From Tetmemena sp. SeJ-2015 (lineage: Eukaryota > Ciliophora > Spirotrichea > Sporadotrichida > Oxytrichidae), in assembly GCA_027382625.1 (NCBI GenBank), contig JAJKFJ010021794.1, positions 1-64,000 on the forward strand: a DNA stretch of 64,000 nt. Reading direction: 5' to 3'. The notes under the pieces are model-generated. The model saw nothing but the letters and a program-made list of their open reading frames with translations. It ran no database searches and was not told the origin of the DNA. The translations under genes and the position numbers were made by a program. Shown piece by piece: positions 1 through 46,291 of the stretch (position 1 is the first letter of the stretch; every line of letters begins with the position of its first letter).

Positions 1-3000
1 AGTGGACGAAGTTATGATGACTTTTTTCGAAAAGTGATGTTGCCTGATCACCGGCACTTCCCTGTCCTGAAAACACCATATCCCACCTAATTCTGGGCTA
101 AAATGATGACGGATACGGTGTTCGTTTTGATGGGCGCGTGCGGAACATAGAGATCTCGAAAATGAGGAAAAAGTTGATCGAAGTTATGATGACTGGGTTT
201 TCGAAAAGTGAAGTGGATTTTTGCCCTATCCCGGCATCTTCCTGTACCTGAAAACACCGTTTATCCATACTAAGATTACTGGGCTTACCAAAATGAGGAT
301 CGGAATGACTTTTGATGGGCGCCGCTGCAGGACATATCGATCTCGAAAGATGAGGAAAAAAGTTTGATCGAAGTTATTGATGAAACTTTTTTTCGAAAAG
401 TGTGATATTACCCTTCCGGGCATTCCTGCTATCCTGAAAACAACTCATCCCACCTAATCGATCTTAAAAATGACGGATACGGTGTTCGTTTTGATTGGCG
501 CGTGCGGCATATCGATCTCGAAATTGAGGAAAAAAGTTGATCGAAGTTATTATGACTTTTTTTTAGAAAAAGTGATTTTGCCCTTCCCGGCACTTCCCTG
601 TCCTGAAACCACCGTATCCCACCTAATTCTGGTAAAAATGACGGATACGGTGCCGGTTTTGATGGGCGCGTGCGGACATATCGATCTCGAGAAATGAGGA
701 AAAAAGTGTGATCATAGATCTTGATGACTTTTTTTATCGAAAAGTGGATTTGCACTTCCGGCATTCCGTCCTTGAAAACACCGTATCCCACTAATTCTGG
801 GCTTAAATGACGGGATACGGTGTTCGTTTTGATGGGCGCGTGCGGGACATATCGATCTCGAAAATGTGAGGGAAAAAGTTGATCGAAGTTATGAAGATTT
901 TTTATCGAAAAAGTAGAATATTACCCTTCGCGCACTTCCCTGTCCTTGAAAACAACTTCATCAATCCTAATTCTGCGGCTAAAAATGACGGATAACGGTG
1001 TTTCGGTTGATGGCGCGTGCAACGCGGAACTATCGATCTTCGCAAAATGAGGAAAAAGTTGATTCGAAGTTATGATGACTTTTTTTCGAAACAATGATAT
1101 TTTGCTGCCGGCACTTTCCCTAGTCCTCGAAAACACACGATATCACCTAAATTCTGGCTAAAATGACGGATACGGTGTTCGTTTTGATGGGCGCGGGCGG
1201 GAACATATCGATCTCGAAAATGAGGAAAAAAGGTGATCGAAGTTATGATGACTTTTTTTCGAAAAAGTTATTTTGCCCTTCCCGGCACTTCCTGTCCTGA
1301 AAACACCGTATCCCACTAATTCTGGGCTAAAAATGACGATACGGTGTTCGTTTTGATGGGGCGCGTGCGGGACATTCGATCTCGAAGAATGAGGAACAAA
1401 AGTGATACGTTATGATGAACTTTGTTTCGAAAAAGTGATTTTTTCCACTTCCCGACTCGCCTGTCCTGAAAACAGCCGCTATCCCAGCCTAATCTGGGCT
1501 AAATGACGGATTGGTTTCTTTGAAATGGGGCGTGCCGGGAACATATCGATCTCGAAAAATGAGGAAAAAGTTGGAAGTTATGATGACTTTTTTCGAAAAG
1601 TGATTTTGCCCTTCCCGGCACTTCCTGTCCTGAAAACACCGTATCCCACCGGAATTTGGGCTAAATGACGGATACGTGTTCGTTTTGATAGGGCGCGTGC
1701 GGGGACATAATCGTCTCGAAAAATTGAGGGAAAAAGTTGATCGAAGTTATTGATGACTTTTTTTCGAAAAAAGTGATTTTTGCCCTTCCCGGCAGTTCCC
1801 TGTCCTGAAACCACACGTATATCCACTATTTCTGGGCTTAAAAGATGACGTACGGTGTTCGTTTTTAATGGGCGCGTGCGGAACTTCGATCTCGAAATGA
1901 GGGGAAAAAAGTTGTCGAAGTTATGATTGACTTTTTTTCGAAAAGTGATTTTGCCCTTCCGGCACTTCCCTGGCCTTGAAACACCGTTGATTATCACACC
2001 TAATTCTGGAGCTAAAAATGACGCGAGATACGGTGTTCGTTTTGATGGGCGCGGGGACATATCGATCTCGAAAATGAGGAAAAAGTTGATCGAAGTTTGA
2101 TGATTTTTTTCGAAAAAGTGGATTTTGCCACTTCCCGGCTCTTCCCTTGTCCTAAAAACCTATATAATCGCCACACTTAATTCGTGGGCTAAAATGACGG
2201 AATAACGGTCGTTCGTTTTGATGGGCGACGTGGAACATATCCGATTCGAAAATGAGGAAAAAAGTTGATCGATGTTTTGATGACTCTTTTTTCGAAAAAG
2301 TGATTTTTGCCCTTCCCGGCACTTTGTACTGAAAACACCGTATCCCACTAATTCTGGGCTAAACATGACGGATACGGTGTTCGTTTTGATGGGCGCGTGC
2401 GGGGAACATATCGATCTCGAAAATGAAGGAAAAGTTTGATCGAGAGTGGTGAGTGATGAACTTATGTTTCGAAAAGTGATTTTTTTGCCTCCCCCTTTTT
2501 TTCTTCTTTTTTTTTTTCCTTTCGCCCCGTCACCTCTCCCGGTCACTTCCTGTCCTGAAAAACCGTATCCGCACCTAATTCTGGGCTAAAAATGACGATC
2601 GGTGTTCGTTTTGATGGGCGCAGTGGCGGACCATATCGATCTCGAAAATTGAGGGGAGAAAAAGTTGATCGAAGTTTATGATACTTTTTTTTTCGAAAAA
2701 GTCGATTTTGCCCTTCCGGCACTTCCCTGTCCTGAAAACACCGATATCCACCTTAATTCTAGGGCTAAAAATGACGGAACCTGTTTCGATTTTGATGCGC
2801 GGTGCAGGAACATACGATTCGAAAATGATGAAAAAATTGATCAAGTTATTTTGATGATTTTTTTTTCGAAAAAAGTGATTTTGCCATTCCCGGCACTTCC
2901 CTGTCCTGAAACACCGTATCCCCTAATTCTGGGCTAAAATGACGGATACGGTTTTCGTTTTGATGGGCGCGTGCTGGAACATATCGATTCGAAAAAGAGG

Positions 3001-3880
3001 AAAAAAGTTGATCGAAGTTATTATAACTTTTTTTCGAAAAAGTGATTTTGCACTTCCCGCACTTACCTGTCCTGAAAACACCGTATCCCACCTAACTTCT
3101 GGGCTAAAATGAGGACACGGATGTTCGTTTTGAATTGAAGTCGGTGAATGCAATGATAAAATGAAGGCAAAAAGTTGAGTGAAGTTATGTTGACTTTTTT
3201 TCGAAAAAGTTGATTTTGCCTTCACGCCTTCCCTGTACACTGAAAAACCGGTATCCCACCTATTTCTGGAGCTAGCTAAAATGCGGATAACGGTGTTCGT
3301 TTTTGATGGCGCGTGCGTGGAACATATCGATACTCGAAACAATGAGGAAAAACAGTTGATCGAATTACTTTGATGACTTTTTTTCGAAAATAGTGATTTG
3401 CCCTTCCCGGCACTTCCCGTGCGAAGACTCCGCTATCCACCCTAATTCTGGCTAAAAATGCACGGATCGGGTTCGTTTTGATGAGGGCGTGCAGGGAGAC
3501 ATATCGATTCGAAAAATGACGGAAAAAATTGATCGAAGTTATGATGACTTTGTTTTTCGCAAAAGTGATTTTGCCCTTCCGGCACTTCCCTGTCTGAAAA
3601 CACCGTATCCCACCTATTCTGGGCTAAATGACGGATACGGTGTTCTTTTTGATGCGCGTGCGGGGACATATCGATTGTCTCGCAAATGAGGAAGAAAACA
3701 GTTGATCCGAAGTTATGAATGACTTTTTTATTCAGAAAAGTGGATTTTGCCACCTGCCCGGCAACCTTCCCTGTCCTGAAACACGTGTCCCACTTATTCT
3801 GGAGCATAAAAAATGACACGCGATACGGTGTTCGTTTTGCATGGGCGCGGTGCAGGGACATATTCGATCTCCAAATATGC
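1..3880. repeat. Satellite array, unit about 170 bp, about 22 copies
   Basis: The same unit recurs about every 170 bp. It can be followed by the recurring words TTCTGGGCTAAAA, GATACGGTGTTCG and CATATCGATCTCGAAAA, seen about 22 times in one orientation. Each unit carries a 12-base inverted repeat, AACACCGTATCC and GGATACGGTGTT, with a loop of about 28 bases, so each could fold into a hairpin. Copies differ mostly by scattered one-base insertions and deletions rather than shared substitutions, which looks more like uncorrected long-read error than old divergence. The array has no open frame that holds across units; the small frames in it are chance. Hypotrich germline satellites of about this unit length have been described; I could not compare sequences. 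The array runs off the left edge of the window. Confidence 0.95.
2488..2545. repeat. Pyrimidine tract inserted in one satellite unit
   Basis: One unit is interrupted by about 55 bases made almost only of C and T, with T runs of 8 and 13. No other unit has it. It may be a real insertion or a sequencing artefact inside the array. Confidence 0.6.
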
Positions 3881-4504
3881 AAAAATAAGTTTTCAGAAAG
3901 ATGTTGACTCATAAAAAAAGTGAATTGCCACTTTTTGTACTGTTCTATATGAAATAATCTGACTTTTTACTTTATAGTTCTAAGATTTAATTTTTGGCGC
4001 TGAGATGAATATTATTATTAAATTTCTTGGTGTTTATTTTTTCATTATGAATTTCGATTAAATTTTTTATATATCTTATAGATGACTATATTATTTTTAT
4101 TCTATTTGATCTATCATTTAGAAGTTCTTCGAATTGCATTTACAAAATAACACTACATTCTTACATTTTATTTTTTTTTTCAATAATCAAGCTTCTGTGA
4201 CAATTATTTTCATGAAAAGTTAAAGCTAGTATCTGCCTTTTTTTGTTTACCATATAAGGCTACAGTCCTTGATTTAAATTTCTAGATCTTAAATGTTATA
4301 TTATTTAGATTAGATGCTTAAATTTATCTTCTCTTCACATCTTCAGATATATAAAATAAGCTATTGAAAAAATTGTCTTTGACTATTTTGTTATTTGTTT
4401 ATACCTTTAATAATATAAGTGGATTTTAAATTAAAAAATTATATATAAGAGTGTGAAACAATATTTTTTTCTTTTGACTTGAATATGTAAGTATTGAGAG
4501 AGAT
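3881..4504. other. AT-rich spacer, no gene seen
   Basis: About 620 bases of AT-rich sequence between the last degraded satellite copy and the polymerase segment. I found no frame with plausible protein, no repeat and no RNA-like fold. The missing motif A segment of the polymerase is not here on either strand. Confidence 0.6.
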
Positions 4505-6427
4505 GTTTTCAATTGCCTAGTTGAACTAAGTCCATTTATAGAGAGCTTCACAACATCTTTTTCCCTCTTCCTCCATACCTTTTTCTTAGAAGAACTTATA
4601 TGCTAACCCGTACTCTCCTTTTTCAGGCTTACCAGCTAATTTTTTAATGACAGGGGTATCTGCAGATGGTAAACCACTTGCTGTGTAATCTATAGCAGGG
4701 ATACCGAAGCCTGATATTTTCATTTCTCTGAATTTAAGAGCTGATTCTTTGCCTTCTTTAATGAAGCCTGCCTGATTCCCAACTCTGAATTCTCTCACTG
4801 TCGGGTAATCATAGATTCGTTCCCCATCTGGGCCATACTCTGGCTTTTTATTTTTCTTATCAAAGGGAGCGAAAAGAAGCTGTTAAATTTGATGTGCACT
4901 CGAAGCATTGAACTCTTGAGCATCACTCTGAACCGAGTAAACCCAGTCAAGGAAGTTCTATTCGTACTGCTTTTGCTCTTTCTCAGCAATCATCTAGATC
5001 TCTTTCAAGTAGTCTACATCGATTTATATGCCTCTTCTCTCCATATCTGTCAAAACTTCTCCAAAGGGAAGCCAGTATTTAGAATACAAGCCAAGCATAT
5101 CTTCCATTCCTTCCTCTTCAGTCTTCAACTTGATAAGCATCTAAGCGAGAGTCTCTCTTAAGAAAAAGGTGATTTCAGCATCAAAACAGGAGTACTCAAC
5201 CCAGGGCGTGACAAATTTTTCATCTGTGTGCATCTACTCTATGTCTGGGAACATGAGCACTTTGCCTTCAGTCCCATCCTTGAGCTATTTGTAAAAACCA
5301 AATGTCTCCTTGATGTTAACCTTCTTGATTTTGACTTCCTTCTGGTACTCTTTAATTCTTTCTATCAAGTGCTTATTTTTGTCTGGATTCTTATTATACT
5401 CTTCTAATAGCGAGTCTATCATAAGCACTTTCTATTGGACTATCTTATCTTCTAAGGACTCAGTCAGTGCAGACAAGGCATACTGATTAGGCATTTTAGA
5501 AGGATCTTATAGTCGAGCCATGTGCATCGTATCTCCTCCAAAGCCCTATACATCTATTCCATGGTTATAGAAAATGTGCCTATCAAATCCATAGTTGTGC
5601 CAGCACTTCAAATAAGTGGGGTCCTCTAGGTATTCTTTGAATTCCATAATAGTGTCGAGTGCATCTGCATAGTTATCAATGAACAGCCTTGGTCCATTTC
5701 CAAAATCAACTTCAGGGCCAATAAAAACTGAAGCGCAAATTATGCTACCATGCCCAACTGGACTCTCTTCCTTTGCATCTATATGAATAGTTTCAGTATC
5801 CCATGCATGTACTCTATCTGGATATTATTTTAAGATCTCCACAACTTTCCTGGCCTCTTCCTTAGTTCGAATGATAGTTGTATTTTGAAGTTTTAAATTC
5901 TTGATAGCTAAATTAACCCCATCCACAAGTTTAATTTTGCTTTCCTCTGGTACGACGATGGCCTCTTAAGCTTGCTTTTCTGCCGCTTTACTACTTTTAG
6001 GTTTCTTTGCACTAAGTGTATTACTTTAGTTTAGTAAATCTATCTGAGCAGAGTCAACTTCACCAAGAGCTGCGGCTTCTTGCAGTTTTTTAGACTTCTT
6101 TCGTTCCTTCTTTTCCTTGACTTCTTACTTATCTTTCTAAAGTTTAGCTCTCTTCTCTTCCGATGCTTGATCAGTAAAGTCGAAGCTTACGTATTTATTA
6201 AATATATTTTCCAAATGGAGTTTAGTCGTTCTTTTAATTTCTTCAGTCAATCTTTTGGAAAGGAGTTTCTCAGATTTGATCTTTTTGATTTTTTTGGTAT
6301 CAGTAGTCATGCCAGAATCTATCTCCATATAGACTTCTGTGGTTGATGTTTCTTGCAGACCAGAATCCAATTCTTCTAGTCCTACATTCTTACTTCCACT
6401 GGTTTTAATACTTCTTGACGCCCAAAA
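4505..6427 (-). CDS. POP-type DNA polymerase A, exonuclease segment (inverted MDS 2)
   Basis: This is the long middle segment of a family A DNA polymerase of the plant and protist organellar (POP) type, which replicates organelle DNA. Read on the minus strand with TAA/TAG as Gln, it gives a Lys-rich N-terminal linker, then the 3'-5' exonuclease domain: Exo I HAWDTETIHI, Exo II WHNYGFDRH and Exo III YSCFDAEI. The start of the polymerase domain follows (YSKYWLPFGEVLTDMERRG, then a Gly-Leu-Pro-Ser-Ala-Asp stretch and AYKFF). It stops near QAIENI, before palm motif A. The first coding bases sit at pointer TTTTGG (CCAAAA on + at 6422-6427), which matches the end of the + strand segment 6515-6604. 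One single-base frame break lies near 5025, in the codons after RRGIYK; I treat it as sequence error. The 3' limit near 4505 is approximate. Confidence 0.93.
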
Positions 6428-6707: not shown

Positions 6708-7460
6708 GGTATGTATCCTGAAATTAAGAAAGACTTGGAGTTTGTATTTAATTTGTATTTGAGTCAGGGGATGTTCTACTAGAATGGGACAACTCTTAAG
6801 GAAAAGCTCCGAAGCCACTCTTGAAAGACAAATAAAGTATAATATTAATTTCACACATTAAAGTCAGTATATATTATTTTATGCGAACGAGAGAAAGAAA
6901 GCAAAGGTGATGAATTTCTCAATAGCATATGGAAAGACAGTGCATGGGTTCATGAAAGACTGGAACTGCAGCAAAGAAGAGGCATAAGCAACTGTAGACT
7001 TATGGTATGCAGATAGACCTGAAGTAAGAATGTGGCAGAAGATGGTTTAGTCTATAGCCATCACTAGGGGCTGGACTTAAACTCTGCTAGGGAGATACAG
7101 AAATCTCACCAAGCATTTCTTACTGGATGTAAAACCAGGGGAAGAAGGCGCAAGACCCAAGAGCAATATGATGAAAGAGCACGGACTCAGAGCTGCAATT
7201 AACACCCCTATCAAGGAGGTGCAGCTGATATAGTTATTGCAGCTATGGTCAAACTTAATAAAGACTAGGTCCTAAAAGATCTAGGCTATTAGCTACTACT
7301 TTAGATACATGATGAAGTCATATTGGAAGGACCAGAAGACAAAGCACAGTAAGCACTAGATAGAGTAGTTTTCATTATGGAAAACCCACTTGATGAAAAA
7401 CTTAGAGTCAAGTTGGAAGTAGATGCCAAAATAGCAACTACTTGGTACGAGGGTAAATGA
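6708..7460 (+). CDS. POP-type DNA polymerase A, palm/fingers segments (C-terminus)
   Basis: This carries the C-terminal third of the polymerase on the plus strand, opposite to the exonuclease segment. It comprises three macronuclear-destined segments. The first codes GMYPEIKKDLE. The second, after pointer GAGT, codes GDVLLEWDNSQGKAPKPLLK. The third, after pointer TA, runs from ERKKAKVMNFSIAYGK (motif B, fingers helix) through LLGRYRNL and NTPIQGGAADI to LQIHDEVILEGP (motif C, with the catalytic Asp of HDE) and ends at TGA, 7458-7460. Motif A (Asp-Tyr-x-Gln-Leu-Glu-Leu-Arg in this family) should lie just before the first segment but is not in the locus. The 5' limit, near the Gly of GMYP, is approximate. 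Confidence 0.92.
6742..6764 (+). other. IES, pointer GAGT (polymerase)
   Basis: GAGT at 6738-6741 and again at 6761-6764 flank 19 AT-rich bases. Removing one copy and the interior turns a broken frame into Lys-Asp-Leu-Glu-Ser-Gly-Asp-Val-Leu-Leu-Glu-Trp, the order expected in POP polymerases. Confidence 0.88.
6835..6881 (+). other. IES, pointer TA (polymerase)
   Basis: TA at 6833-6834 and 6880-6881 bound about 45 AT-rich bases between the PLLKD and ERKKAKV coding stretches. Joining gives Leu-Lys-Asp-Lys-Tyr-Ala-Asn-Glu-Arg, as expected. The two-base pointer is the shortest inferred here, so the exact edges are less sure. Confidence 0.75.
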
Positions 7461-7510: not shown

Positions 7511-8370
7511 CTTGAATTGATTTGACTTAAAATCCAAAAATTTGTAATATATTTGGCAAAATGGTAAGACAAATTTTAATTCAAATTTAAACAAAGACTT
7601 AGCTGTGGATTATGTTGCTGACTAATGTGATTATAGTGGGCGAACATCTGCTGCAGTCCTTACGCACATGCGAGAACTAATACTTTTTGGGAGCATGTTA
7701 AGCAAAACAACGACATATACAAATTATTGTAAGAACTATGAGCGTTTAATCATTGGTGTAGTATGAATGAGAAATACCTGCCTAAGCATATGAGAATAGG
7801 CTTGATAAACAGAATAATCCGCTTTGTTTTTGGGCCCTTGAGTATTCTGTCTGTGCTAACTCTACTATACTATCGTTCTTAGTTTACAGATATTTACGAC
7901 GCCTGCAGTCTCAGGTAATCCAAAATCTCCTTAAAACCAATTTAGGGCTGACTGTTTTGCTCATTGCGTTAATGATAACTTCCCTAACTTGGCTTGCAAG
8001 GATGTGAGCACAAGCCTTACATATCAAGGCAACACCTATAATCAGCTGTACTTTTATCCTTATGCTAACTCTAAAAACTACAACGACTGCCTTGGCTACG
8101 TTTCAAATGTAAATTATATTAAATTTAGTTTGTTGTAGAATGGAGAAACTTAATTTGCAGAGGATGAGCCTTGGCGCTAGTGGAAGACTCATACTTGCTT
8201 TTATAACTGCAAACAACCGGGAGATTGCTATATTGGATTTGATGAAGACAACAGAGGAGAATGCAGCACTTGGAATCCAGACATTGAAGGACTTCTCTGT
8301 GTCATGCCCACTAGCGATTGCGAAAACTATGTTATGTCCTCAGAGATTTGCCTCAATTCTCATTAAAAAC
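7511..8370 (+). CDS. Cys-rich ectodomain, probable N-terminal part of the sensor-phosphodiesterase
   Basis: Four open segments joined at pointers TATGAG, TAC and AATG give one continuous frame with many Cys: NYCKNYE, then NNPLCFW and EYSVCANS, then ADCFAHCVNDNFPNLACKD, then the last segment with CFYNCKQPGDCYIGF, GECSTW, GLLCVMPTSDC and SSEICLN. The spacing and low charge suggest a disulfide-bonded extracellular domain. I do not recognise a named family. No ATG starts this frame; an upstream segment with the signal peptide is either missing or was not recognised. The last segment stays open into an AT-rich stretch, and the next clear segment (from 8555) begins just before a membrane helix on the same strand, so I infer one gene with the voltage-sensor/phosphodiesterase part; a separate gene is possible. 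Confidence 0.65.
7743..7794 (+). other. IES, pointer TATGAG
   Basis: TATGAG at 7737-7742 and 7789-7794. Removal joins Asn-Tyr-Cys-Lys-Asn-Tyr-Glu to Asn-Arg-Leu-Asp-Lys in frame, while neither side is open through the interior. Confidence 0.8.
7866..7897 (+). other. IES, pointer TAC
   Basis: TAC at 7863-7865 and 7895-7897. Removal joins Val-Cys-Ala-Asn-Ser-Thr to Thr-Pro-Ala-Val-Ser-Gly in frame. Confidence 0.72.
8110..8142 (+). other. IES, pointer AATG
   Basis: AATG at 8106-8109 and 8139-8142 bound 29 AT-rich bases. Removal joins Gly-Tyr-Val-Ser-Asn to Gly-Glu-Thr-Gln-Phe in frame. Confidence 0.82.
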
Positions 8371-8554
8371 AATTAAGCTAAAAATTTTTGAAATATCTAT
8401 AGGAAACTAAATATGAAATAGAAAATAAAATATATTATCTTTTTATCTTAAAATAAAAAAAAAATTTTCTAAATGTAAATTTATAGTCTTTGATTTGTTA
8501 ATTAAAGAAAAATTATTCACATAGATATTTACATATATCAAGAGCAAATAAGAG

Positions 8555-11341
8555 CAAAGATTAACTATTTTATGGCAGATAAATTCTGATAAAACGATTT
8601 GCATTGACATTCAGTTCATCTTCCTGTCGGTGATCATCGGAAATATTCTGTAAATAATATTCGAGACTAGTATGCTCTACTCTTTGGAAGTCACTTTCAA
8701 ACCCACTAATTTTGACAGACTTCAGGATCCAGATCGATATCAGGACGAGCAAAATCAAGAAAACCCTGACCAAAAGAAGGAACTGGATCTAACTCATTTA
8801 TTTTAATGGATTGTGGGAAGGTGATGATGAAATGCTGGGGAGAGATGGTGTTCATCACCTGCTACTTGGTGGTTATCTGCTCGTTTGTTATAGGTTTGGT
8901 GTTTGCACTCAACTATGGAAGGCCACTTTCAATTATGGTAGATTTCTTTATCGCTTGGGCTATCGATCAAGCAAAGAACATAAATTAAATGTATCTCTAT
9001 GCTTTAACATTCCAGTTCAGTTTTTCATTTATTGGGCTGTGATCAGGCGCTTTGGGTTTTATGATAACGTAAACTTCTAAGAATGGGATGACGAGCAGAT
9101 GGCAGAGAAGGGTCCAACCATATCCTTGCTCTTTCTAATGAGAAGAACGGTAGCAAACACTTTAGAGAAAAGACAAGTTTCTCGTTTTATTTTGGGTATG
9201 GTTATCCTACTGTGTGTGGTGATTTTCTCAGAGTTATCTCTGACAACCTAAATTGAGGACTCCCCTTCCCTTACCAATTTTTACTATGTGCTAAACTACA
9301 TACTGCTGGCGTTCTTCGTGATGGAAATAGTTATAAAGCTGTTTGCTTATGGACACTTATTCCTAATGGAATACATCAATTTGTTCGATTCCACTATCGT
9401 CATAATCTCATTCATCATGCAGGTACTCAACCTGAAAGCCAAGGTGCTAGGAATTCTAAGAGTGCTCAGGCTCATCAAGGTCATCATCGAGATGAAAAAG
9501 GTTGCAGACGCAAAGAAAGAGCAACAAGAAATGATAAAAGAGCAAAAGAGACAAGGTTCCTAAATGGCTAGCTATGTAGAGAGAGTGCTCGATTTCTATG
9601 AGAGACTCACCTAAAACTTAAATTCTTATTATAAACAATGACATACCAAAACATCTAAAGGAAGATATCCAATGGGCTATAGATGTCATCAGTGGAAATA
9701 GACTCTACGTGGGAGGATTTGAGGGCTTCAAACTTTCAGAAGACAGACCAGAAGTCAAAGCATGGACTGACTTGATTGCACTCAGAAATCTTCCGATTAT
9801 TCCAATAAATAAGGGAAATATTTGAGTATCAATCAAAATAGGTTCTTGAAATAACAAGTTGGATTACGATAGACTAAAGCAATTCGAAATCCTGGACCAA
9901 CCTAACAAAAACGAAGATAAAGGAAAGATTGTGATGAGAAAGTCTGGTGATGCAAATTAACCCTCTGCACACAAGAAGAAAGGAGATAATTCCAATCTAG
10001 AAAATTATTCTTCTTTTATCATCATGCTTAGAATTTAGACGACAGTAAATTGGGACTATTAGCAGGTAAAGGTAGTTAAGTAGAAGCATCTGCTGGAACT
10101 CCTAATACTAAACAAGGTCTTCCTGCATCTTTCTAGAAACTCAAGACTAACACTATGCCAAATGACTACAGCGCACAAGAGACAGACGAAGACCATGAGT
10201 TCTTAGTCCTGACTGATTTAATCGATATGGAACGCACTTATCTTGATAGTGCTGTGGAGAAGTTTGATGAAACTAGCTTTGATGCCTTTACCTACTCTCA
10301 GATCTTGGGAAATCACTCTCTACAGTATCTGACTTTTAAGATAATGCAGATGTATAACCTTATACACCCTTTCAACATCTCTCTTGAGAGACTTGCAAGT
10401 TTCTCTTTGGAGATATAGAATGGATACTTCTAGGACAATCCCTATCACAACATGGTTCATATTGTAGATTGCTTGCAAGCCATGCATTACTTGTTCAGTG
10501 TGGGAAATATAAAGCGTTACTTGAAAAAGCATGATTTGCTCGCATCATTTGTTGCCAATCTCATTCACGACTACGAACATCCGTAAGATCTTTCACATAT
10601 TTACAGTTTATAGTGGTTACTCGAACTAGTTTGTGATAAGGACTAAGCACCCTCTGGCAATCAGATATAGCGATGTATCAGTTTTAGAAAACCACCACCT
10701 AGCTGCAGCGTTTGCCATCTTGCTGAATGAGGATAACAACATCTTTGAGAACCTTCCTATAGACACTTATCTAGAAGTTAGAAAGATCATATTACTGAGA
10801 TTAATGTTAATAGTTTAATCTTAAATTTATGGATATAATGAATAATAAGGAGTGTGCTGAACACAGACTTGAGCAAGCACTTTGGACTAATGACTGAGCT
10901 GAAGACTAAGTTGGGGAATAATTTCCCAACAGATTCTCTGGATGACAGAGTGCTGATAATGTCAGTGTCACTGAGGATTTGTGATAAATTTAAAGTGACA
11001 AGAGGAACTACTATCTTCTTCAAGTGGATGGACGCCCTTTTTGAAGAGTTCTATAAATAAGGAGACATGGAAAAGGCTTTAGATTTGCCTATCAGTAAGT
11101 TCATGGACAGAGAGAACACTAACAAAGAGAAGGCCTTCTCCAACTATCTCAATTGAAATTTAGAGTATTATTGTTAAGCATAAACTCTTATTTGACTATG
11201 AATGTTGTGTGCAGACCTTTGTTAACAACCTTCTTAATCCTTGTAAATGATGACGAAGTTTATGGGGCAATGATAAGAGAAGGAATAGACAAAAATAAAA
11301 AGAATTTGGAATAGAGGATTGATGGAGACTCTGGAAAGTGA
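8555..11341 (+). CDS. Voltage-sensor-like domain fused to cyclic nucleotide phosphodiesterase
   Basis: After pointer joins this reads as one membrane enzyme. In order: a helix (ICIDIQFIFLSVIIGNIL), a helix (VFITCYLVVICSFVIGLVFA), a helix ending IYWAVIRRFGFYD, and an S1-S4 module with S1 FILGMVILLCVVIFSE, S2 VLNYILLAFFVMEIVIKLF, S3 INLFDSTIVIISFIM and S4 LGILRVLRLIKVI, whose Arg-Arg-Lys recur every third residue. A charged helix (KKEQQEMIKEQKRQ) and no pore helix follow. The C-terminus is a class I phosphodiesterase hydrolysing cAMP and/or cGMP: YHNMVH, LIHDYEHPG, SVLENHHLAAAF, NTDLSKHF, ending at TGA 11339-11341. The invariant Gln that holds the nucleotide ring is not evident near VVCRPLL, close to an IES junction. 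Single-base frame breaks near 8810 and 9030 are unexplained. Voltage-sensing phosphatases are a precedent for S1-S4 plus enzyme; voltage control of cyclic nucleotide breakdown is my inference. Confidence 0.88.
9618..9636 (+). other. IES, pointer AAAC
   Basis: AAAC at 9614-9617 and 9633-9636 bound 15 AT-rich bases. Removal avoids a TGA and joins Glu-Arg-Leu-Thr-Gln to Asn-Asn-Asp-Ile-Pro-Lys. Confidence 0.85.
9821..9853 (+). other. IES, pointer GAAATA
   Basis: GAAATA at 9815-9820 and 9848-9853. Removal skips a TGA and joins Asn-Lys-Gly-Asn to Asn-Lys-Leu-Asp-Tyr. Confidence 0.87.
10007..10035 (+). other. IES, pointer AATT
   Basis: AATT at 10003-10006 and 10032-10035. Removal joins Asn-Ser-Asn-Leu-Glu-Asn to Leu-Asp-Asp-Ser-Lys in frame. 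Confidence 0.8.
10583..10613 (+). other. Spliceosomal intron in phosphodiesterase
   Basis: This 31-base GTAAGA...TATAG sequence cuts the metal-binding motif between HDYEHP and GYSNQF. It has intron ends and no direct repeat that would restore the frame, so I call it an intron and not an IES. Confidence 0.82.
10800..10852 (+). other. IES, pointer GAG
   Basis: GAG at 10797-10799 and 10850-10852 bound 50 AT-rich bases. Removal joins Arg-Lys-Ile-Ile-Leu-Leu to Ser-Val-Leu-Asn-Thr-Asp-Leu-Ser-Lys-His-Phe, a conserved phosphodiesterase stretch. Confidence 0.87.
11154..11203 (+). other. IES, pointer AAT (or ATT)
   Basis: AAT at 11151-11153 and 11201-11203 joins Phe-Ser-Asn-Tyr-Leu-Asn to Val-Val-Cys-Arg-Pro-Leu-Leu. 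An ATT pair (11152-11154, 11190-11192) also keeps the frame and adds three residues. AAT aligns better with other phosphodiesterases. Confidence 0.7.
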
Positions 11342-11501: not shown

Positions 11502-12725
11502 TGGAACAGCTTCAAATTCAAGAGCAAACTGCCATCTCTGATGAAAATTAACCTCAAGTACCAGTAGAGCAACTATTCTAAGAGAAAGAATAAGTTGAGC
11601 TACTTCAATAGAAACTGAATGATCTGCAAATAAATGATGAGAAGGAGAACGGCGTTTAAGTACCACAAAACTTGAAATAGTAAAACGAAAACAAAAATGT
11701 TCTGCTTGATTTCTCAAATACTTTCAAGTCGAATACAAGAGCTTTCAAATCTAAGAAAAAGCCAAACCTTAAAAATATAGCCCCTAAAACTGATCAAACA
11801 ACTAATGAAGTCTAAATATCCTAGGTTTAATTTTTTAAAAGAGACCAAGCAAGGTGAAGAAGTTTAAAATGGAGAACCAAACATCAATAAAGATCTAGAA
11901 GATGAAAACTTTTTGACACCTGAAACCACTCCATTAACTATTGAGATACCAAGAAACTTAACTCTAACTCAGCAATAAATGATGGAAAGAAAATTCATGG
12001 ATCAGAGAAGATGGTTCTGTATGGCAAGGCCATAACATCCAAAATCTTGCGGGATATCATCTCTTACATCGGTGTGGAACTTCTTATTTTCAACTCTGGG
12101 AGCAGGTAATCATCGCCCTATCAGCACTGAGGAGGCTCTGGAAGTATTGGGATTCAAGCCTCCTTATACCAATGTAGATTTTGGGTCGTTCACTGGGAAT
12201 GATACTTTGATCTAGTGGTTTGGCCTTTTGAATAAGTTTTTCAAAGTAAAGGGTTAAGCTCAGTTGGCTTGGAAAATGCATGGCAAGAGCACAACTCAGG
12301 GTATAGATTCAGACCAAGCAAAGCAAAACTTAGTCAAAGGTTTGAAAGATGAAAGCAAGGCTTATATTTATCACTGCTGGAACCACTATTTCTGTCCAAT
12401 TGGGTTTGAACTGACACCCACTAAACCATATGATGCTTACTCACCAATGGAAGAAATCTGTGAATTGGATACGTGGATTATTATAGGAGAAGTTTCAAAG
12501 TGCTATCCGGTATTCCACGTCAAAAAGTGGTAGGACATATCTACTGACATCAGCTGTGCATTCCCCAAATATTTAACCTGTGTATTCTATATATATTTCA
12601 ACATCAGGAAGACCGATCTAGGAATTCAAGAGAAGACCTCCAAAGCTTTCACAGAAGGATCAAAGCAAGGTGGTAATTTGCACTGTATCATAGAATTTTA
12701 AGCTTTAAAAGACTTAGCGGAGTGA
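11502..12725 (+). CDS. BIVM-like protein
   Basis: About 400 residues resembling the BIVM family (basic, immunoglobulin-like variable motif-containing), conserved from protists to animals but of unclear function. The N-terminal 150 residues are Gln, Lys and Glu rich. The conserved part begins at [20 protein letters not shown] and continues with [72 protein letters not shown] and [14 protein letters not shown], then TGA at 12723-12725. I recognise the family from memory of these blocks. The start is the first ATG of the open frame, at 11502. One single-base frame break lies near 11835 in a T run and may be an error. No IES was needed, unlike its neighbours. It lies 160 bases after the phosphodiesterase stop on the same strand. 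Confidence 0.85.
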
Positions 12726-22581: not shown

Positions 22582-25500
22582 ATGCAGATATTAGATTTAT
22601 CAATAACTTCGATGGATTTAGATTCTAGGTATAATATTTTATTGTCGGGTGATTTAGGTGGTTCGCAGGAGGGATTGACTATCGCTTGCGAACAGCACAA
22701 AATATTGGCAGTGTTTTATTCAAACCAGCAACAAAAGTACAAGTGCTTTCGGTGTCTGCTGGAGGAGCAAGACCTAATTTATATTGACATCAAGTTTAAA
22801 AAAGAAATGGAGGATTACGAGAGAATCAAAAACCTCACGGCTGACATTCATAGAATATCACTTATATATGTTTAATTGAGTTTTGATTAATTAGGATTAT
22901 AAAGGAGCACTCAGTGGACATGAATCTGATGAAGGTGTGGAAGGCAGAGATCCGCAAGGCTCTTATGGAAGTAAGAAAGCAGTTCTTGGAGTGGATTGAC
23001 ACTATGACAAAACAATTCGTGGACAGCTTTAAGGGACTTGACAACTAGAGAGAAGTGAAGTAATATAGGGGTGAGGATAGGAGATTAAATCAACAGCTTG
23101 AGGGTCTCAGAGACAAGTACATGCAAGTTTAAACTATTTCTTTCCTGTTAAATTATGAGAACATTCACTGTCATATCCAACTGCAGAGCTGAAGAGAAAG
23201 TGGAAACCATTGAGAAATTCAGACAGCAGATGAATACCATTGAGTCAGAAGTCATGCGGCAAAGTCAGTACATCAATAAGCAAACTAATAGCATCAAGGA
23301 GACACAGAGAAAGATAGTGGCAATTGAGGGGTTGAAAGAAAAGTTAGAGGTCAAGTTTATTCAATACTTTGAAAAGAAGCTTAGTCACTTGCGCCAATTA
23401 GGTACTCATAATGACTCATTGGGCGTATCTATGATTTCCCAAAATATGAACTAGAATATCAGAAAGACTGCTCATAATGATTCTATAATCATATAATAAA
23501 AGCATCGGGGGGGGGGCCTTTCCTCGTCATCCACTTTTTTTCATGAAAATATGAAAAATCACTATCCAGCCTAAAATCAGCCAAAAACAACAATTTTTAG
23601 GTCCAATTTCAAATCCAAAGTGTCTATCCTATTGATATTTTTTAATTTAGAAAATTTGGGAGAACCTACAAAGAAATTTTTTTTTTAAAAATTTAATTCT
23701 ATAGAAATGGTATTATAATCTAAGCAAATTCAATGGCTTTATAAGCTTGAGATTTCTTAAGTATCATATTACTCATAGATATCTTAGCTTATACAAAATA
23801 GCCTTAGAATTCTCTTCTTACTTTAGAGCACGCTTAAAACCTAGTTACTTTTAAAATAAACATGTTATACTATTTATTTTTATTGCAACAATTTTTTCTA
23901 TATAAACATGATGAATTAAGAAATCCTTTTTAATATAAGTTTTTTCAAATATTTTATAATTAATGACTTCTGTCTTTATTATTTATAATATTTAAAGCAT
24001 ATTTGTAAGAAATTTATCTTATTATATGGCTTTTGTGCATCAATATCTTGTCTATTATGTAATATATTTTTGAAAAAATGCTATAATTTTTAAATAAATA
24101 AAGTTAGGTTTTATAAAGCTGTTTTAAAGAGTAAATTTACTGTCCTCTTCGTATTAAAAATTTATGACCTATCTTCTAAAGAAAAGATTTCAATAGAATA
24201 GACACTTTGGATTTGAAATTGGGCCTAAGAATTGTTGTTTTTGGCTGATTTTAGGCTGGATAGTAATTTTTCATATTTTCATGAAAAAAAGTGGATGACG
24301 AGGAAAGGCCCCCCCCCAAAGCATCAAGCCCAAAATAATAGAAATACACAGGCAGAATCTGCTTCATAAAGCAGCCAGCCTAATACCAACGAGAAGACTG
24401 CCGCGGCTCCATCTTCTTCAATGCAAAAATTAAATGATTGCCTGCATATTGTTAAATTTATTTGAGCATATGTCTAATCAATAAATTCCACAATAAAAGA
24501 GTAACTTACCACCTGCACAGTAGTAAACATAGTAGAGATAGATGAATAACAATGAATAAGATGACTTTGAAAACAGATTGTAGATGGATACACTGGACTT
24601 GAGTGGTATTCAATTCGGCGGAGGAAAGGGAGGGTTCTTGGATTAATCTAGTATATTACCTGAGCTCTTCGACTTCAACCCAGATAGGGATCTTAAGTCT
24701 AATTAAAAAGGTGCAGGAGTTCCTCAGATCAGGGTCTCTCCTCAAGCCTAGGTGCAGCAAATCACTAAACAAGTAGATCCCAGATAAAGCTCAAACATGA
24801 ACCAACCCCAGCAATTTCTTATTTAGCATAAGACTTAGCACTAGAAATGTTAATATGATATATTTTCAAAAATAGCAGGAGGAAGAGTCAAAGAAGTTGT
24901 CGTCTTCAGAGTAGGGTACACCAAAACTTACAAAGCATGCTTTGGATATGCTTAATTAAAAGGAACCTAATCCAAGGAGTTCCTTCCACAAAGTAGAGGA
25001 TATGATTCGGAGAGACTAAAGAGACTAACTTTTCATAATTTATTAAAAATTAACTTGATAATCCTGGACAAAGAAATTCCTAACATAACAATTCAGTGAC
25101 TTACTCAAACTCTTTACTAGAAGCATCAACAATCAGTAAGTACAAGCATAAGAACTAGAATAGTATCTATTATCTGAAGCCACAGACTAAGGAGATCTAC
25201 ATGCTTGATTTCAAACAGCAAGGATTCATAAAAGAGCAGCTATTCATGTAGTTCCTTCTCCCAAGATGCTTCGTCTCTCAGCAGCTTCAAAATGGTTCAA
25301 TCTATGTGATGGTATTCAATATTTTGATAGATGATGGGAGGAATATATTCAGACTCAAAGAAGTCAACTTCATGCTTGCAAATTGATGCAAACATGAATG
25401 TTCTAGAAAAAGATTAAATGCCCAAAGGGCCAAGATCCAATCTTGGAGTGGCTCTAATCCTTGACAAGTTTATTTTCTGTATTGGAGGAGATGAAAATAG

Positions 25501-26143
25501 CACTCAGGCACCAACGAGCACTACTGAGATATATGACACTCAGCAAGACTGCTGGTATCAAGGGCCTAATCTTAACGTGGGAAGGTCTAGCATATCTGCT
25601 TGTGCCTTGAATCATAAGTTTATTTACACATTCCCTGGATTGCAAGCAACAAGTCATTCAACTCTTGAGTTTTTGGACTTAGGTTCTTGCATAGATCCAA
25701 GTGAATTCAAGAAAACTAGTTGGCAATTGTTCATTGTAAAGAATTCAACTTTGGCAAAGTAGTCTGGATTTGGGTGTGCTCAATTGAATCAAAATGAGGT
25801 GCTGATATTTGGAGGGATGTCAGGGCAAACATACATATTCGATATTGCTGCTACTCTAAAGAAAAGCAGCGCTCTAAGTCTGTTCAAGGCTAATGAGCTA
25901 ATCAATTACATATAATTTGGATTAGCTTAAGTTCACACACCTCAAGAAATATAAATTATAGGTTAATAGAAAAGTCAGATGTGCAGTGAAAGAACGTAGC
26001 TGTGCCATAATAGCGACTTCCTTGCCAGAGTTTATGGAAATTACATGTACGCTCTAGATGGGGAAAATATGGGTCTGCACGTCTATTCAATCCCGCAGAA
26101 GCAGTGGAATTTCTCCACACTTAAAGAGCTAGGAGTCAATTGA
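22582..26143 (+). CDS. B-box/coiled-coil/kelch protein interrupted by TIR element B
   Basis: From ATG at 22582 a B-box-like zinc site (CEQHKILAVFYSNQQQKYKC, then FRCL) leads into a coiled coil (MKVWKAEIRKALMEVRKQFL; EKVETIEKFRQQMNTIESEV). Element B (23507-24317) then cuts the frame between two AAAGCATC copies; removal gives Gln-Gln-Lys-His-Gln-Ala-Gln. A long Gln-rich linker follows, then kelch-type repeats: NGSIYVMGGIYSD, FIFCIGGDENS with TTEIYDTQQDCWYQGPNLN, and EVLIFGGMSGQTYIFDI, ending GLHVYSIPQKQWNFSTLKEL and TGA at 26141-26143. B-box, coiled coil and beta-propeller in this order resemble TRIM-like or kelch scaffold proteins of ciliates; no RING is visible, so ligase activity is not supported. 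Further IESs use AG (near 23130-23190), GCATAT and TGATGG. Some junctions (24840-24890, 25035-25105) are unresolved. Confidence 0.82.
23507..24317. mobile_element. TIR element B, 811 bp, acting as an IES
   Basis: The ends (23507-23634 and 24191-24317) are inverted repeats of about 127 bases that differ at only a few positions. They start GGGGGGGGGCCTTTCCTCG. AAAGCATC stands directly outside both ends (23499-23506 and 24318-24325). The interior is AT-rich with no transposase-like frame. Removing the element and one AAAGCATC copy keeps the reading frame of the B-box/kelch gene. The eight-base repeat may be a target-site duplication that now works as pointer. Confidence 0.92.
24450..24471 (+). 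other. IES, pointer GCATAT (kelch gene)
   Basis: GCATAT at 24444-24449 and 24466-24471. Removal skips a TGA and joins Asn-Asp-Cys-Leu-His to Met-Ser-Asn-Gln-Gln. Confidence 0.85.
25313..25337 (+). other. IES, pointer TGATGG (kelch gene)
   Basis: TGATGG at 25307-25312 and 25332-25337. Removal restores the kelch signature Ile-Tyr-Val-Met-Gly-Gly and also cures the frame break that appears near 25390. Confidence 0.9.
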
Positions 26144-46269: not shown

Positions 46270-46291
46270 CCCCAAAACCCCAAAACCCCAA
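46270..46291. repeat. Internal telomere-type repeat (C4A4)2C4A2
   Basis: Twenty-two bases of exact C4A4 repeat, the hypotrich macronuclear telomere sequence. In germline DNA such blocks mark the ends of TBE-type transposons. It coincides with the start of the anomalous region to the right, so it may be a transposon end or a chimeric join with macronuclear sequence. Confidence 0.85.

Follow-up and report, generated by a model that had tools for sequence, protein, structure and literature searches.

A Tetmemena gene predicted to join a pore-less voltage sensor to a cyclic nucleotide phosphodiesterase

The first 64,000 nucleotides of contig JAJKFJ010021794.1 of the ciliate Tetmemena sp. SeJ-2015 (C2860:1-64000 in our numbering, hereafter 'the window') carry on the forward strand a gene that ends at position 11341. 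A first-pass annotation, made from the letters alone, had described it as a voltage-sensor-like S1-S4 domain fused to a cyclic nucleotide phosphodiesterase. Sequence, relatives and predicted folds support the reading of the S1-S4 domain as a pore-less voltage sensor fused to such an enzyme: the computed product holds the sensor, a long S4 helix and the enzyme domain in one chain, and the same plan is found in other ciliates. The genome searched comprises 146 Mb in 5213 contigs.

The gene and its interruptions

An all-frame translation places the sensor and phosphodiesterase parts in changing frames of the genomic DNA. The frame was restored by cutting out short AT-rich stretches, namely four GT-AG introns of 30 to 33 nt and nine inserts with direct repeats, which yields a product of 1031 aa. 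In the code applied, TAA and TAG specify Gln and TGA is the stop; 16 TAA/TAG codons occur in the model, and its single TGA ends it. Both domains were said to lie in one frame at 8555-11341. The common strand, the single open frame and the end at 11341 stand, but the frame is open only after removal of the four introns and nine inserts, and the start was wrong. Two relatives place the gene start near 7625: P0003 from Euplotes crassus (989 aa) and P0004 (966 aa) align with the window from position 7637 onward, beginning at residue 2 of each. That start lies 930 bases 5' of 8555, a position that falls within a 251-bp insert. The model is as follows.

7625-11341 (+): whole gene, 1031 aa; TGA stop at 11339-11341; start codon tentative (M-W start common to P0003 and P0004)
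7627-7635 (+): tentative 9-bp germline insert behind the start codon, repeat GTG; the weakest junction
7636-7914 (+): N-terminus and first transmembrane helix (TM1), containing a 33-nt GT-AG intron at 7729-7761
7915-7945 (+): GT-AG intron, 31 nt
7946-8344 (+): most of the Cys-rich ectodomain, containing a 30-nt GT-AG intron at 8109-8138
8345-8595 (+): 251-bp germline insert, 7-bp direct repeat GATTTGC, GC 18%
8596-8976 (+): TM2, charged loop and TM3, containing an insert at 8784-8806 (repeat TGGAT; junction backed by P0001)
8977-9005 (+): 29-bp insert, repeat AACAT
9006-9613 (+): segment without interruption, S1-S4 and charged helix
9171-9239 (+): S1 helix (residues 56-78 of the folded segment)
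9264-9350 (+): S2 helix with Phe429 and Glu432
9372-9425 (+): S3 helix with Asn450 and Asp453
9441-9608 (+): predicted single 56-residue helix, S4 (Lys471, Arg477, Arg480, Lys483, Lys489) running into the charged helix
9614-9632 (+): 19-bp insert, repeat AAAC, several other junctions possible; length across the junction equals that of P0001
9633-10002 (+): linker with the conserved segment EDIQWAIDVISGNRLY, containing an insert at 9815-9847 (repeat GAAATA)
10003-10031 (+): 29-bp insert, repeat AATT, junction choice ambiguous
10032-10582 (+): linker and N-terminal phosphodiesterase (His779, His783, His819 and Asp820 at 10446-10571)
10583-10613 (+): GT-AG intron, 31 nt
10614-10796 (+): middle part of the phosphodiesterase (SVLENHH)
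10797-10849 (+): 53-bp insert, repeat GAG (alternative: intron 10806-10849, three more residues); length fits P0002
10850-11150 (+): phosphodiesterase, with metal-ligand Asp930 (10983) and Phe981 (11136) replacing the usual Gln
11151-11200 (+): 50-bp insert, repeat AAT, containing an in-frame TGA
11201-11341 (+): phosphodiesterase C-terminus and stop

Internal eliminated sequences are flanked by direct repeats. Several of the repeats found here (3-4 bp) could easily arise by chance, and the case for the inserts rests on the frame, the GC contrast and the relatives. The removed DNA has a GC content of 20.9%, compared to 39.5% for the DNA kept, and none of 5000 random interval sets was as GC-poor. 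In length, and in sequence where they overlap, P0001 backs the TGGAT and AAAC junctions, P0003 backs the two N-terminal introns, and P0002 agrees with the junctions of the enzyme part. Equally good alternatives exist for the AAAC and AATT junctions, and every one considered keeps the frame. Two earlier choices, a gene start at ATG 8572 (models of 832-833 aa) and an insert with repeat AATG at 8805-8830, proved wrong by comparison with the relatives. The intron at 10806-10849 was dropped in favour of the insert at 10797-10849, since the length then agrees with P0002; the frame is kept either way.

The voltage sensor and its membrane setting

The S1-S4 module with its Arg/Lys ladder, as first described, was recovered as a Pfam Ion_trans match (1.2e-11). 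This match covers only profile positions 7-113 of 241 and, because it stops there, includes no pore. No S5-pore-S6 was found between sensor and enzyme, the maximal 19-residue hydropathy over residues 500-760 being 0.71. The first-pass annotation had indeed seen no pore, and its charged helix after S4 also holds, S4 running into it within one predicted helix of 56 residues. A structure prediction had been proposed there as a check. The best 50 matches listed in the fold comparison were all phosphodiesterases, and the sensor was therefore folded by itself: the four helices of the voltage-sensing domain (VSD) fold are present, and the predicted fold matches the sensor of Ci-VSP.

The Phe and Glu of S2 and the Asp of S3 serve as the charge-transfer centre of voltage sensors. 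They are kept in all 22 aligned rows, as are basic residues at S4 positions 0, +6, +9, +12 and +18, with +3 and +15 neutral. Ten columns are invariant among 12 aligned sensors; they include two Arg of S4 and the Phe/Glu/Asp of the charge-transfer centre.

The sensor profile also matches Hv1 (7.4e-17). S4 +3 is uncharged in 22 of 22 rows, and VSDs missing an S4 charge can pass gating-pore currents according to the accessible part of PMC10651576. The sensor might thus itself conduct protons or cations, Hv1-like or through a gating pore, while the enzyme rides along. The Hv1 proton channel requires an Asp in S1, but S1 of the window sensor has none. An Hv1-type channel was rejected as the main function, and we consider a conducting sensor improbable.

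Hydropathy of the window protein delineates TM1, TM2, TM3, S1, S2 and S3/S4, with a weak stretch (1.05) behind TM3; a fourth pre-S1 helix is clearer in P0003, P0004, P0007 and P0011. With four such helices, the Cys-rich domain would face the outside of the cell, and N-terminus, S4 exit and enzyme would be cytosolic. The likeness to voltage-sensing phosphatases drawn in the first-pass annotation holds for the pore-less S1-S4, the linker and the enzyme, but the further TM helices and the ectodomain had not been described.

Eight Cys columns of the ectodomain are invariant in five aligned sequences, and its profile found no relative in the PDB (a single match, at 0.91). Such conservation would also fit a receptor in which the ectodomain controls the enzyme, the sensor being vestigial or a mere membrane anchor. 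An anchor, however, would have no need of the charge-transfer residues and S4 Arg that are invariant in the 12 sensors, and P0027 accommodates sensor and enzyme within 580 residues, too few to leave room for this Cys-rich ectodomain. We regard the receptor alternative as quite unlikely.

The phosphodiesterase domain and its relatives

The full phosphodiesterase domain that had been announced is present (PDEase_I, 3.2e-59), with both the profile and the fold of class I. The metal ligands His, His, Asp and Asp are kept in 20 of 20 rows, and so are the catalytic His and the Glu/His of ENHH. The purine-binding Gln is regarded as invariant in class I phosphodiesterases. It is found in all six other phosphodiesterases aligned and in 13 of the 20 family rows, and is replaced in seven: by Phe981 in the window, Tyr in P0002 and P0003, and Leu in P0130, P0132, P0133 and P0134. 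Because of Phe981, our claim is limited to a class I domain with its metal ligands, short of the proven cAMP/cGMP hydrolase that had been named. From the sequences, the loss in the subclade of the window protein would imply an altered substrate choice or affinity. The tree comprised 25 rows (P0135, P0006 and P0001 were dropped from 28); the four Leu proteins make up a second family clade, whose loss of the Gln is apparently independent.

The subclade enzyme could instead be weak or dead, the protein serving as a binder or scaffold under the control of voltage or of a ligand. The Gln is gone at two places in the tree, and one paralogue lacks a metal His; yet the metal ligands, the catalytic His and the ENHH Glu/His stand in every row, a conservation for which a dead enzyme would have no need, and this alternative appears unlikely.

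With the first model as query, a single protein was returned, P0001, which covers 53% of the query, its membrane half, at 54% identity; P0002 is 56% identical over the enzyme part. Wherever they overlap the window protein, these two and the full-length Euplotes P0003 have the same domain order. A search with the enzyme part gave 349 proteins, at least seven of which, among the 120 listed, carry both Pfam domains. With a profile of four full-length relatives, 15 proteins were obtained among the best 8000 candidates scored; 14 carry both domains, including P0123 of Stentor coeruleus. The fifteenth is P0135 (Perkinsus, named a PDE1B variant), in which ectodomain, sensor and linker seem recognizable by eye, but its model stops near the enzyme start; it has no PF00233 and was not counted as a fusion.

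These relatives bear on the possibility, raised in the first-pass annotation itself, that two separate genes, one for a channel or sensor and one for a phosphodiesterase, are simply neighbours. The relatives are predicted proteins, and the available portion of PMC8670190 reports that PDEase_I and Ion_trans are always adjacent in Euplotes; judging from E. crassus P0003 alone, such a pair may be one gene. Against two genes, the window model is one stop-free frame, both parts lie in a single annotated protein in E. crassus, in Stentor and in 13 other profile-search clusters, and the linker is alignable over the supposed border. Two adjacent genes were rejected on these grounds, and we give them almost no credence. 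We conclude that the fusion anatomy is, with near certainty, real and conserved.

The genome of the window has 12 phosphodiesterase loci on 11 contigs. A matching sensor lies upstream in the same orientation at at least four of the 12 (C2860, C2961, C2358 and C3277), a lower bound since the other eight were compared by tblastn only. The paralogue L014 (C2961:56500-60900) matches ectodomain, sensor and phosphodiesterase, but reads YHNTLR where the metal His would be expected and has Val at S4 +12; its sequence suggests that it is possibly a decayed enzyme retaining the Gln. The phosphodiesterase matches L017, L022 and L023 (C3405, C560 and C4142) are closely alike and likely copies or haplotypes. 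A viral contig scan found none of eight candidate stretches to be related.

Surroundings, proposed mechanism and meaning

The adjoining gene encodes a family A DNA polymerase and appears scrambled with an inversion (exonuclease part 4343-6370, minus strand; polymerase part 6784-7457, plus strand). A tandem satellite occupies 7-3868, with about 22 copies of a unit of about 170 bp in two adjoining arrays. Further downstream lie an open reading frame at 11697-12725 (+), which has no Pfam match and which we take to resemble BIVM, and a Kelch-repeat protein at 25331-26143 (+). Positions 46270-46289, internal to the contig and bordering a GC-rich block at 46-52 kb, read CCCCAAAACCCCAAAACCCC (C4A4C4A4C4), presumably a spirotrich-type telomere repeat; it may mark either a transposon end or a chromosome junction. 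The insert pattern, this repeat and the inverted split of the DNA polymerase point to micronuclear (germline) DNA as the source, probably from a hypotrich-like ciliate. Rfam and tRNA scans of the 64-kb window found none.

We propose one membrane protein, made of an N-terminus, TM1, the Cys-rich ectodomain, two more membrane helices (relatives clearly have a third), the pore-less S1-S4, a long helix straight from S4, the linker and the class I phosphodiesterase. A change in voltage would move S4, shift its helix and the conserved linker, and so switch the enzyme, as in voltage-sensing phosphatases; depolarisation would be the likely activating direction. The key sensor residues kept in relatives suggest such direct switching of messenger breakdown by membrane voltage. 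Voltage control of the enzyme is likely, and the explanation as a whole seems to us fairly probable.

Several points weigh against it. With Phe981 instead of Gln, the enzyme might hydrolyse cAMP/cGMP weakly or not at all, and the C2961 paralogue (outside the 22 rows), which has lost a metal His as well as the charge at +12, indicates decay in the family. S4 +3 is uncharged throughout, the S3 Asn is replaced by Arg in P0027, the ectodomain could provide ligand control instead of voltage control, and P0003, modelled at full length (mean pLDDT 52.9), is poorly predicted except in the two domains.

Among known systems, Ci-VSP likewise links a pore-less S1-S4 to a cytosolic enzyme, but that enzyme is a PTEN-like phosphatase, whereas the window protein has PDEase_I behind S4, extra TM helices and an ectodomain. 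The sperm Na+/H+ exchanger SLC9C1, which has a cyclic nucleotide-binding domain, is a transporter rather than an enzyme. PDE1 and PDE4 share the class I catalytic domain and metal ligands; the window protein differs by its membrane sensor and by the Gln replaced in its subclade. Plasmodium membrane phosphodiesterases are also alveolate enzymes, with up to six predicted TM helices, and are set apart by description, no voltage sensor being mentioned in the available part of PMC5746546. Fusions of a K+ channel with adenylyl cyclase (Weber 2004) are described for ciliates and apicomplexans in the accessible portions of PMC5746546, PMC4588038 and PMC10651576; in Paramecium, according to the second, a cyclase coupled to a K+ channel domain raises cAMP on hyperpolarisation. 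These, too, are alveolate membrane proteins tying a voltage sensor to cyclic nucleotide turnover, but they have a pore and make cAMP, while the window protein has a hydrolase and neither pore nor cyclase domain. The matching sensor-cyclase proteins of PMC12223298, as far as its available part goes, combine a cyclic nucleotide enzyme with an Ion_trans sensor that shows no homology to a pore, and alveolates are among their hosts; they are set apart by description only, having a cyclase instead of a phosphodiesterase and no ectodomain described. A voltage-sensor phosphodiesterase did not appear as a subject among the open-access PMC titles and abstract openings surveyed, nor, in the portions of the open-access literature covered, was the messenger-removal side tied to voltage.

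Membrane potential sets the ciliary beat of ciliates, partly via cyclic nucleotides, and the protein may have a role in this beating. Messenger removal driven by depolarisation would mirror the ciliate cyclase that raises cAMP upon hyperpolarisation, and complete the pair. With a phosphodiesterase attached to a sensor that has no pore, the control of messenger breakdown by voltage can be tested directly, and such a protein could serve as a genetically encoded tool to steer cAMP or cGMP electrically. More tentatively, these proteins could represent an ancient alveolate family of voltage-gated phosphodiesterases, the hydrolytic counterpart of the voltage-linked cyclases, in which depolarisation leads directly to removal of a cyclic nucleotide at the membrane without ion flux. 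Two separate losses of the Gln, one of them in the Euplotes-hypotrich branch, would then have moved the enzyme to a different cyclic nucleotide or a low-affinity, high-concentration regime, and the ectodomain would add a chemical input, making the protein a voltage-and-ligand coincidence detector.
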